Source: Gelidibacter sp. (GTDB lineage Bacteria; Bacteroidota; Bacteroidia; Flavobacteriales; Flavobacteriaceae). From it: a stretch of DNA of 46,267 bases. Positions 6,061 to 15,318 of the stretch are shown piece after piece (position 1 is the first letter of the stretch; the number at the start of each line of letters is the position of its first letter). The notes under the pieces were generated by a model. It worked only from the letters and a program-made list of their open reading frames with translations, searched no databases and was not told where the DNA came from. The translations under genes were made by a program, and so were the position numbers. The DNA is taken from NCBI GenBank assembly GCA_010906935.1, contig JAAFHC010000006.1, positions 1 to 46,267 on the forward strand, read 5' to 3'.

Positions 6061-6828
6061 TTGATGAAAAATAAATATGTTGACTTTATTACGGATGAAC
6101 ATTTACTAAACTGCATTGCTAACCTTCACAAAGCATATCTAAAATCAAAGAACAATATCACAAAAAAGAATTTTTACAGCAATAAAGTTGATACCATTAA
6201 ATTGACTTTTGACGCACAATTCAACGATATTAATCAGGAAAGTTTAATTCAATCCGAAATATTGCGCCAAATTGACAAATCCATAAACAATTCTATCGGA
6301 ACATTTCACGAACAAATTTTGGGAAGAATAAAAGGTTTTCAAATTGGGAATTCAAGTGGTTTTGACATAAAAGCAAACGATGATACTTTGTTTGCTGACA
6401 TCAAAAACAAACACAATACAATGAACAGCAGTTCGGCAGAAAGTTTATTTCAAAAATTAAAAACTTACGCCGACAATTATAAACAGGCAAAATGCTATTG
6501 GGTTCAAATTTTAGCAAAAGGAAGTTTTAATGATTTATGGAAAGGCGAAATAAACGGAAAAGAATATAGTCACAGCCGTGTGTATAAAATTTCAGGAGAC
6601 CAATTTTATGCTTTACTTACAGGAAAAGAAAATGCGCTTTTTCAACTTTACAAAGTATTGCCTAAAGCAATAAGTGATTATTTACATTCGATTGATAGGA
6701 TTGATGCTGTAAAAGAAAATTCAGCATTGGATGAAATAAAATCTGAAACTAAAATTACCGAAAGAACAATTTTAGACCAAATTACTTTTGAAAATTACAA
6801 TTATTATTTGGGTTTCGACAAGTTGTAA
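6061..6828 (+). CDS. Type II restriction endonuclease, Eco47II/Sau96I-like family
   Basis: 255 aa; GNSSGFDIKANDDTLFADIKNKHNTMNSSSAESLFQKL resembles the Eco47II family catalytic region; converges on a C5-cytosine methyltransferase. Confidence 0.8.
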   Translation: MMKNKYVDFITDEHLLNCIANLHKAYLKSKNNITKKNFYSNKVDTIKLTFDAQFNDINQESLIQSEILRQIDKSINNSIGTFHEQILGRIKGFQIGNSSGFDIKANDDTLFADIKNKHNTMNSSSAESLFQKLKTYADNYKQAKCYWVQILAKGSFNDLWKGEINGKEYSHSRVYKISGDQFYALLTGKENALFQLYKVLPKAISDYLHSIDRIDAVKENSALDEIKSETKITERTILDQITFENYNYYLGFDKL

Positions 6829-8042
6829 TAGGTATTTAAAAATTTCACAATTGAATAACCTACTTCTTTTCCTAGGTTTACAGGAACTGCATTCCCAATT
6901 TGCTTGTATTGTTGCGCAACAGATCCTTCAAATTTCCAAACATCAGGAAAAGTTTGAATTCTCGCATATTCTCGAACAGTAAAAGGTCTTGTTTCATCAG
7001 GATGACACCTTTCGGTTTGCTTTTGTGCTGGACTGCAAGTCAAAGTTAAACAAGGTTCGTCCCAGCCTATTCTTCGTGCAATCCCAGTTTTTCCGCCACC
7101 AAGATGAAAGCTTCCGCCCATAAATTCTTTTTGAATTTCTAATGGTAAATCTCGCCAATAGCCTTTTTGCGGCACTAAATCCAATACATCAATTTTACTT
7201 TTTGGGTATTTTGAACCTTCAGATTTTGGAACATTACATTCAAATAATTCGCCTTTTTTGAGTGCATCTTTTAAATTGTAGATTTTTCTGTACGGTTTTG
7301 GATATTCATATTTCAAATCAATATCTTTTCTGATTCCCACCAAAATCAATCGTTCTCTTTTTTGTGGAACATTAAAATTTATTGCTTTAAGCACTTGTAC
7401 AGGAACAACATTGTAACCAATTTCATCTAAAATCGAAATCATTCCTTGCAAAGTTTTTCCTTTTTCGTGGCTCAACAAACCGCGAACATTTTCACCAATA
7501 CAAATTGGGGGATTTACTTCTTTAACCACTCTGGCAAATTCGTAAAACAAAGTTCCGCGAGCATCTGCCAAACCAAGTTTTTTTCCGGCATAACTAAATG
7601 CTTGACAAGGAAATCCACCTGTTACAACATCAACTTTATTATGATATTCGGAAAAATCAAAAGATTTTACATCTCCTTCCAAGACATTCCAATTTGGACG
7701 ATTATTGCGTAAAGTTTGACAGGCCCATTTATCAATTTCATTTAATGCAACACATTTTAAACCTGATTTTTCCATTCCAAGCGCTAAACCGCCAGCACCG
7801 GCAAATAATTCTAAAACAGTATATTCATTGTGTGGTTCAACATAATTTGAAACAGTCTCTAGAATATCGCTATCCAAAAAACCGGCAAATAAAGTATCTA
7901 CCTCGGATTTTCTATAAACTCTATAATTGCTCATTGGCTCACGAACAGCGGAAAGTTTGCCCTCTTTATCCCAACGTCGTAAAGTTTCTTTGCTTTTACC
8001 AATGTATTCGGAAGTTTCCGATAACGTCATATATTCATTCAT
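6804..8042 (-). CDS. DNA (cytosine-5-)-methyltransferase with N-terminal MerR/excisionase-like HTH domain
   Basis: Motifs LELFAGAGGLALGMEKSG (I), GGFPCQAFSYAG (IV), ENVRGL (VI), QIGNAVPVNLG (X); N-terminus YMTLSETSEYIGKSKETLRRWDKEGKLSAVR...YRVYRKSEVD is HTH-like. First ATG at 8042; the ORF-track start at 8048 is TTG. Confidence 0.93.
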   Translation of the reverse strand: MNEYMTLSETSEYIGKSKETLRRWDKEGKLSAVREPMSNYRVYRKSEVDTLFAGFLDSDILETVSNYVEPHNEYTVLELFAGAGGLALGMEKSGLKCVALNEIDKWACQTLRNNRPNWNVLEGDVKSFDFSEYHNKVDVVTGGFPCQAFSYAGKKLGLADARGTLFYEFARVVKEVNPPICIGENVRGLLSHEKGKTLQGMISILDEIGYNVVPVQVLKAINFNVPQKRERLILVGIRKDIDLKYEYPKPYRKIYNLKDALKKGELFECNVPKSEGSKYPKSKIDVLDLVPQKGYWRDLPLEIQKEFMGGSFHLGGGKTGIARRIGWDEPCLTLTCSPAQKQTERCHPDETRPFTVREYARIQTFPDVWKFEGSVAQQYKQIGNAVPVNLGKEVGYSIVKFLNTYYNLSKPK

Positions 8043-8054
8043 AACCAACTTATT

Positions 8055-8073
8055 TAACCTTATACAATGGTTA
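8055..8073. promoter_or_regulatory. Putative operator: inverted repeat TAACC-N9-GGTTA, with a further TAACC at 8042-8046
   Basis: Seen directly; lies between the putative -7 element and the start codon of the HTH-methyltransferase gene. Confidence 0.35.
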
Positions 8074-8081
8074 CAAATTTA
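8074..8081 (-). promoter_or_regulatory. Putative -7 element TAAATTTG of the methyltransferase gene
   Basis: Minus-strand TAAATTTG matches TAnnTTTG, about 32 nt upstream of the ATG. Confidence 0.4.
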
Positions 8082-8145
8082 AAAGAAAAATTGGAATAAC
8101 CAAATAAATAAAGAGAAAAGAAAAATATTTAAAAACCCAATCTTT

Positions 8146-9041
8146 CTAAGCAGTTAATTCCCTGAACAACTTTTCTAAATTTTTGTTTTTGGCAGTCAAG
8201 TTCAAGGTTTTTAATCCGTTGTCATGGGCAAAATCAAAAACGGCCGGGCGCATATCTTTTTTGAGGTGTCAAATGTCAATTCCCAAATAGTGTCGTGCAC
8301 ATTATTGGCAGATTTTAAATGAGGTATATTTTCTAAAAACTGCTTTTCAATTTTTAAATCGAATTCAACTTCAATCAGCTGTTCCTGATTTCCCGTTAAT
8401 TCCTTTAAATTTTTATCGGCAATAATTTGTCCGTTGTGAATTAAGATAACCCGATCGCAAATTGCCTCCACTTCCTGCAAAATATGGGTCGAAAAAAGTA
8501 CGGTTTTGTCTTTTCCAACTTCTTTGATCAAGCTTCTGATTTCGGCCAATTGGTTTGGATCCAGTCCGGTGGTTGGCTCATCCAAAATCAACACTTCCGG
8601 ATTGTGCAACAAAGCCGCAGCCAAACCAACACGCTGGCGATATCCTTTTGAAAGCTGACTAATTTTTTTGTGTGCTTCTGGCGTCAACCCAACTTTAACG
8701 ATTACATTTTCAACTTCCTCCTTGGAAATTTTATGTATAGACGCGTTGAATTGCAAATATTCCCTCACATACATTTCCAAATACAAAGGATTGTTTTCAG
8801 GCAGATATCCAATGCATTTTTGCGCTTCAATTTTATGGGAAGAAATATCAAAATTATTGACCAAAACTTCGCCTTCGGAAGCATTTATATAACCTGTAAT
8901 TATTTTCATCATAGTCGATTTTCCAGCGCCATTCGGACCTAAAAAACCGACAATTTCTCCTTTTTCAATAGAAAAACTCACATTGTTCAATGCTTTTTGT
9001 TCTCCGTATAATTTGGTTATATTTTTTACTGCAATAGACAT
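8146..9041 (-). CDS. gldA: Gliding-motility-type ABC transporter ATP-binding protein GldA; frame interrupted at an A6G run (8257-8262)
   Basis: Walker A GPNGAGKS, LSKGYRQR signature, LILDEPTTGLDP Walker B. The annotated frame stops at 8211; a -1 shift at AAAAAAG continues as DMRPAVFDFAHDNGLKTLNLTAKNKNLEKLFRELTA* to 8146. Confidence 0.85.
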
Positions 9042-9230
9042 TTCAATGGAATTTCAACAAAAATACATTTTAATTGCAATTTACCCACAATTATAAAGGT
9101 TGTAAACCAAATTTATTTTTTAGACCTTTGAAAGCCCATAATGGGCATTTAAAAATTGAATTTATCAACACATAATATCTTAGTTTACCGAGTTGAATTA
9201 AGGCATTTTAATGATTAAAAACCAACCTAA

Positions 9231-9389
9231 ATGGGCATTTTCAGAGTTATTTTGTGCATTATTTTTCCACCTTTAGCGGTGGTTGATAAAGGTTGCGGCT
9301 CATTTATTATCGTTTTTATTTTAACTTGCTTAGGTTGGATACCTGGCGTTATTGCCGCTTTAATTATTAACAACAATCCCAATAGATGA
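9231..9389 (+). CDS. YqaE/Pmp3-family small membrane protein (52 aa)
   Basis: My translation: MGIFRVILCIIFPPLAVVDKGCGSFIIVFILTCLGWIPGVIAALIINNNPNR*. PPLAV...LGWIPGVIAA is typical of the UPF0057/Pmp3 family; below the ORF-track length cutoff. Confidence 0.9.
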   Translation: MGIFRVILCIIFPPLAVVDKGCGSFIIVFILTCLGWIPGVIAALIINNNPNR

Positions 9390-9436
9390 AACGAGCATCA
9401 CAAATTTTAATACACAAAAGAATGATTAATGGCGAA

Positions 9437-9456
9437 CCTGCCTGCCGGCAGGCAGG
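9437..9456. repeat. 20-bp perfect GC-rich palindrome CCTGCCTGCCGGCAGGCAGG
   Basis: Read directly in an AT-rich intergenic region. Confidence 0.85.
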
Positions 9457-9493
9457 CAGCAGCTGTTACCGCTAAAAAATAAAATTTAAACAG

Positions 9494-10189
9494 ATGAAAA
9501 AAATAAAGTTAATTGATTTAGGATTAAAAGATTACAAAGAAACCTGGGATTATCAGGAAGTGCTTTTTCAGGAAACCATTAACCTAAAAATTGACAACCG
9601 AAAAAACAATACCACCAATAAAACGCCAAATTATTTTCTGTTTGTAGAGCATCCTCACGTATACACTTTGGGAAAAAGCGGCGATATGAATAATTTGTTG
9701 CTCAACGAAACCCAACTTACCGAAAAAGGCGCCACATTTTATAAAATCAATCGTGGTGGCGATATCACCTATCACGGACCCGGACAATTGGTTGGCTATC
9801 CGATTCTGGACTTGGACAATTTTTTTACCGATATTCACAAATACCTTCGATTTTTAGAAGAAGTAATCATCTTAACACTTGATGAATACGGCATAAAAGC
9901 CGGACGTAGTGAAGGAGAAACAGGCGTTTGGCTTGGTGTGGGAACGCCATTTGCGCGTAAAATTTGCGCGTTGGGCGTGCGAACCAGCCGTTGGGTAACC
10001 ATGCACGGATTTGCACTAAATGTAAATACCAATTTGGGTTATTTCGACAACATTATTCCCTGTGGAATTAAAGGAAAAGCTGTGACTTCTTTGGAAGCCG
10101 AATTAAGCAGAAAAATTCCTTTGGAAGAAGTAAAAGAAAAAATTTTAAAGCACTTTTCTCAATTGTTTGAAGCAAATATTCAATATTAG
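9494..10189 (+). CDS. lipB: Lipoyl(octanoyl) transferase LipB
   Basis: FLFVEHPHVYTLGKSGD, RGGDITYHGPGQLVGYPILDL, CALGVRTSRWVTMHGFALNVNT. Confidence 0.96.
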   Translation: MKKIKLIDLGLKDYKETWDYQEVLFQETINLKIDNRKNNTTNKTPNYFLFVEHPHVYTLGKSGDMNNLLLNETQLTEKGATFYKINRGGDITYHGPGQLVGYPILDLDNFFTDIHKYLRFLEEVIILTLDEYGIKAGRSEGETGVWLGVGTPFARKICALGVRTSRWVTMHGFALNVNTNLGYFDNIIPCGIKGKAVTSLEAELSRKIPLEEVKEKILKHFSQLFEANIQY

Positions 10190-14283: not shown

Positions 14284-15318
14284 ATGAAAAAAAATAAAAA
14301 ACCTACAATGTACAAAATTTTAATAATTCTCCTATTTTCAATTTTGCTTATTTCCTGTGAAGAGAATCCAATAGATGGCCCAAGAGGGTATAAATACAAT
14401 GTAGGTGACCTTCCTGATTCTCCAGTAAATCTTGAAAATTTTAATACTATTTACGATGACTATAATTCTACCGGACCAAGCCTTGGCAGATTAATACCGT
14501 TCTGCTTTTCAACAAACAGGGATAGTCATGGAAATGAGTTTGATATAATTTATCAGCCTATGAATATTGATTTTGATAAAACGAGCGGTATTTTAAAAGT
14601 GACTAATAAATATACAAATTGGGATGTTTTTGTGGATGATTTTGAAGTAATTAAAAAAGGATTAAGTAAAATTAATACTACAGGAAATGAATTTGGTCCG
14701 TATTTAATAGTAAAATATGATTTCAATGATCTTTATTTCACGTTGCTGTATGCATCTGATATTACAGGTAATTTTGAAATAAATTATACCTCAAATAAAA
14801 GCAATCCAGATTTTTCAGCAATAAAACCAGTTGAATTTCTTAATTCGGAATTTGATGATTTATACCCAACTTTTAATTCAGATAAAAATAAAATATATTT
14901 TTGTTCAAATAGAGATAATGCAAATTTTGACATTTATTACACAAATATTTTGAATCCTGAAAATGAATTGGAATTGATACTGTCAGACACCAATGAGCAC
15001 AGTATTGTTAAAGACACCAACATTTCTAGCAGTGCCGATGACAAATGTCCTTTTGTGTATAATAACATCTTGGTTTTCACATCAAACAGAGAAGGCGGAT
15101 TTGGCGGATTTGATTTATATTACTGTAAATTTGAAAATAATAGTTGGGGGAATCCAATAAACTTTGGCGCTAAAATTAATAGTGAATTTGACGAGTATAG
15201 ACCCATTTTAATTGATGAAGAAGTAACATATAAAGAAACAATGATGGTATTTTCATCAAATAGAACTGGAGGAAAAGGAGGATTTGATTTATATTATGTT
15301 GGCGTGACAACTGAATAA
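14284..15318 (+). CDS. Lipoprotein with PD40/TolB-like beta-propeller repeats
   Basis: Lipobox LLISC; repeats NKIYFCSNRDNANFDIYY, VFTSNREGGFGGFDLYYC, VFSSNRTGGKGGFDLYYV. Confidence 0.85.
   Translation: MKKNKKPTMYKILIILLFSILLISCEENPIDGPRGYKYNVGDLPDSPVNLENFNTIYDDYNSTGPSLGRLIPFCFSTNRDSHGNEFDIIYQPMNIDFDKTSGILKVTNKYTNWDVFVDDFEVIKKGLSKINTTGNEFGPYLIVKYDFNDLYFTLLYASDITGNFEINYTSNKSNPDFSAIKPVEFLNSEFDDLYPTFNSDKNKIYFCSNRDNANFDIYYTNILNPENELELILSDTNEHSIVKDTNISSSADDKCPFVYNNILVFTSNREGGFGGFDLYYCKFENNSWGNPINFGAKINSEFDEYRPILIDEEVTYKETMMVFSSNRTGGKGGFDLYYVGVTTE

Follow-up and report, generated by a model that had tools for sequence, protein, structure and literature searches.

The window, the whole stretch of DNA analysed here (46,267 nt), corresponds to contig C181 of a draft genome (G000) of 3.32 Mb, which comprises 296 contigs and is 95% complete. 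The closest named relatives of this draft genome are Lutibacter metagenome assemblies. The gldA gene lies on the minus strand of the window (9041–8146). Its codons 1–262 (9041–8256) are in the zero frame and encode an intact ABC ATPase domain: the 262 residues before the frame break score 409.2 bits against the GldA equivalog model TIGR03522 (cut-off, 402.6), PF00005 is matched at residues 18–158, and this part of the protein is 95% identical to GldA of G031. At the break, the gene reads GAC ACC TCA AAA AAG ATA TGC. The six A residues (8262–8257) and the following G (8256) form an A6G tract, read in phase as A_AAA_AAG. As the initial annotation had correctly described, the zero frame breaks at this heptamer and stops at 8211, and the conserved C-terminus is held in the −1 frame. 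The zero frame (9041–8211) encodes 276 aa and ends in DTSKKICARPFLILPMTTD; its out-of-frame tail, ICARPFLILPMTTD, together with the TAA stop (8213–8211), occupies 8255–8211, so that the frame terminates 14 residues past the break and lacks the conserved DMRP...FRELT C-terminus. The true C-terminal coding sequence (8256–8146) ends at TAG (8148–8146); codons 1–262 followed by a −1 step into it give DMRPAVFDFAHDNGLKTLNLTAKNKNLEKLFRELTA and a total of 298 aa. No second gldA copy or alternative contig was found, with only one GldA-level match genome-wide. Directly downstream of gldA, the window carries a gene for an Eco47II-family restriction endonuclease (PF09553), convergent with a gene for a C5 cytosine methylase that has an N-terminal MerR-like HTH (6061–8048).

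The site was compared in 109 loci, 29 from Lutibacter and 80 from genome contigs, the two sets partly overlapping. The gldA frame runs uninterrupted across the site in all of them (29/29 and 80/80). GldA-related matches were present in 38/38 same-genus genomes, a few of which had partial or split ones. Where the contig was complete, the same-genus frames were ~297–324 aa long, and none of the gldA frames contained an internal stop. Close relatives read GAC ACY TCA AAA GAT ATG CGY CCG at the site, with a run of four A. Compared to these near relatives, gldA of the window has two added A (A4 to A6), a difference of +2 that no relative shares. The initial annotation had implied an unbroken run of seven A that lost one; this is contradicted by the A4 run, which also disfavours a deletion model from A7 to A6. 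Over the 36 codons past the break, the numbers of synonymous and non-synonymous differences were 5/0 compared to L003, 6/0 to L004, 8/0 to L006, and 10/0 to L011. Because the change after the break is synonymous only, gldA has not undergone pseudogene decay; it is either intact in reality or was broken only very recently.

The A_AAA_AAG heptamer conforms to the dnaX-type X_XXY_YYZ pattern in the correct phase. The window's genome has 20 such in-phase heptamers in 166 orthologous ORFs (161 kb), and a sister genome has 14 in 169 ORFs. These counts indicate that the heptamer is ordinary in this A-rich coding sequence. Moreover, two A inserted into xxA AAA G always give xxA AAA AAG, so heptamer, phase, and direction are one fact and not three. 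Their exact match, previously put forward as a reason to suspect recoding, is an automatic by-product of the +2 A and carries no weight. The same caution applies more generally: a slippery heptamer is expected at the break whenever two A are added to (or one is lost from) a Lys-encoding A run, and thus heptamer, phase, and direction, even taken together, are not evidence for recoding.

Other breaks in the same assembly were surveyed in ~0.57 Mb of G000 and ~1.44 Mb of the sister genome G032. Three of 172 orthologs were frame-broken in G000, all by short tandem duplications: gldA (+2), a DUF4136 gene (+5; TTGGC unit, L160 ~11650), and an S4/pseudouridine synthase gene (+11; CATCCAATTAC doubled, L121 ~2143–2165). 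The latter two duplications are not present in the sister genome, where, leaving aside the mirror of the +11 case, 0/166 orthologs were broken; taken alone, the difference between the two genomes falls short of significance (p = 0.13). At a 2-N scaffold join (L169, position 14454), the same 25 bases, CTCCGTAGCGATGCTATGCAGTTAA, stand on both sides (14430–14480). This repeat shows that a contig-end overlap was written twice, and thus that the assembly makes false tandem duplications. Exact tandem duplications with a unit of at least 10 bases were denser in G000 (20 in 0.57 Mb) than in the sister genome (16 in 1.07 Mb), although the G000 count is partly made up of intergenic repeats. The assembly therefore contains both non-triplet breaks outside gldA and false duplications, as an artefact would predict. 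An apparent break at L228/L152 was discounted, since it probably lies in a shadow or non-coding ORF. G000 also carries apparently intergenic 7-bp tandem arrays (L139 1695–2400, L147 2852–3233, L148 3101–3297, and L167 10299) with the units AAAGCTC, GTTAAAG, TAGGTTA, and GAAACCA; similar 7-bp arrays occur in the sister genome.

A second gliding gene, gldJ, is split over three frames in G000 (C215 ~7854–9525; loci L256–L258). One of its breaks is −1 (CCCGTT to CCTTT) and the other is +2 in a T run (T5 to T7). They lie near positions 9230 and 8370 of C215, at ~17% and ~68% of the gene, and the idea that all breaks cluster near 3′ ends was dropped. Among the matches listed for the other 37 Lutibacter genomes, no gldJ had internal stops, and the complete ones were in a single frame. 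Neither gldJ nor gldA showed decay beyond the indels. Two unlike breaks in an otherwise clean gldJ point to error. The nine other gliding/T9SS genes examined (gldB, gldC, gldF, gldG, sprA, gldK, gldH, gldD, and gldM) were intact.

We consider it most likely, judging from the sequence comparisons, that the gldA break is an assembly (or base-calling) artefact of a fragmented draft from a Lutibacter species. Two extra A would have been written into TCA AAAA GAT as a short spurious tandem duplication of the kind seen elsewhere in this assembly, and the true gldA probably encodes an ordinary GldA of 297 aa in one unbroken frame. We infer that the +2 A share their origin with duplications such as the overlap written twice at the scaffold join. 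Against an artefact, a 2-base error in an A4 run is unlike the usual short-read error, and the other breaks in the assembly could equally be genuine slipped-strand mutations. A recent, genuine 2-base slipped-strand insertion in the strain or population is the next most likely reading of the locus. GldA would then keep its whole ATPase domain and exchange its last 36 conserved residues for 14 unrelated ones. Gliding may be impaired. Since gldJ is broken as well, decay of the gliding machine may have begun, and genuine breaks in both genes would suggest loss of gliding in the lineage. Extension of a homopolymer is a known mode of replication slippage, and gldJ is broken too, in G000 alone; in Flavobacterium johnsoniae, GldA is needed for gliding and for the stability of GldJ and GldK (PMC9127263). 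Gliding genes were also broken more often than the other surveyed genes (2/11 vs 2/171, p = 0.019; p = 0.16 when gldA, the starting point, is left out). However, the other nine gliding/T9SS genes have escaped, the DUF4136 and S4/pseudouridine synthase genes, which are unrelated to gliding, are broken in similar fashion, the two gliding genes carry nothing worse than their indels, and the assembly demonstrably produces false duplications. It is also conceivable, but very doubtful, that the run acts as a switch in this Lutibacter population, slipping between A4 and A6 (or A4 and A7) in a lineage-specific manner, with the gldJ T5/T7 run as a second one. Gliding would then be controlled in a manner resembling phase variation, being turned down or on and off by replication slippage or by a low-level ribosomal −1 shift.

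It is very unlikely that a real insertion is partly offset by −1 slippage of the ribosome or RNA polymerase on A6G, yielding a little 298-aa GldA. Phase and direction would allow this, and the −1 frame holds an intact C-terminus. Of the bacterial A runs, A_AAA_AAG slips most in E. coli (PMC5009743), and the genome has a Lys-UUU tRNA gene (L133). Yet without stimulators this heptamer shifts only ~0.3% in E. coli (PMC4066793), and no stimulator was detected at gldA. Downstream segments of 45, 70, 90, and 110 nt folded no better than their shuffles (z = +0.57 to +1.26; pseudoknot-free folds), and reading by eye revealed no SD-like or purine-rich stretch in ATTGACATTTGACACCTC just before the heptamer; SD sequences are, in any case, not recognised by Bacteroidia ribosomes (PMC9976891). 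For RNA polymerase, the tract of six A is below the ~9 A or T from which selection against transcriptional slippage becomes evident in many genomes (PMC1088944). Programmed, selected −1 frameshifting that yields two useful GldA forms is extremely improbable. The heptamer itself speaks for it, and nothing else does. The frame break occurs in no relative, no stimulators were detected, and ordinary genes of the genome often contain the heptamer. The product, which reads TSKKDMRP across the junction, has one Lys more than near relatives and is thus one residue above the usual same-genus length of 297 aa. Alignment with GldA of relatives, which the initial annotation had proposed as a check, gave a conserved break in 0/109 loci; this rules out conserved recoding of gldA. 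An outcome that the initial annotation had named as a refutation, an unbroken frame without the slippery heptamer in relatives, is thus what the comparison shows. Of the three explanations offered initially, error, there called the simplest, is best supported, and the dnaX-type slip that restores full-length GldA has not stood up.

gldA shares the A_AAA_AAG heptamer, the phase, and the −1 direction with the programmed frameshift of E. coli dnaX, but lacks the upstream SD-like element, the downstream stem-loop, and the conservation; moreover, the frameshift product is the shorter form in dnaX, unlike in gldA. Poly(A)-disrupted genes that are rescued by transcriptional slippage (PMC1088944) resemble gldA in that the ORF is cut at an A run and one A in the RNA restores it; compared to them, gldA has six A, well under ~nine, and its disruption is not recurrent. 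The singleton frame transitions that GeneTack classes as arising from sequencing or assembly error or a recent indel (PMC3711429) differ from gldA in that their usual error is a single-base change in a homopolymer, whereas gldA has a 2-base insertion. In other respects gldA is like them: its break is validated by homologs and occurs in one genome only, and its sequence is otherwise intact. Such singleton, BLASTP-validated frameshifts are expected to be sequencing errors (PMC3711429).
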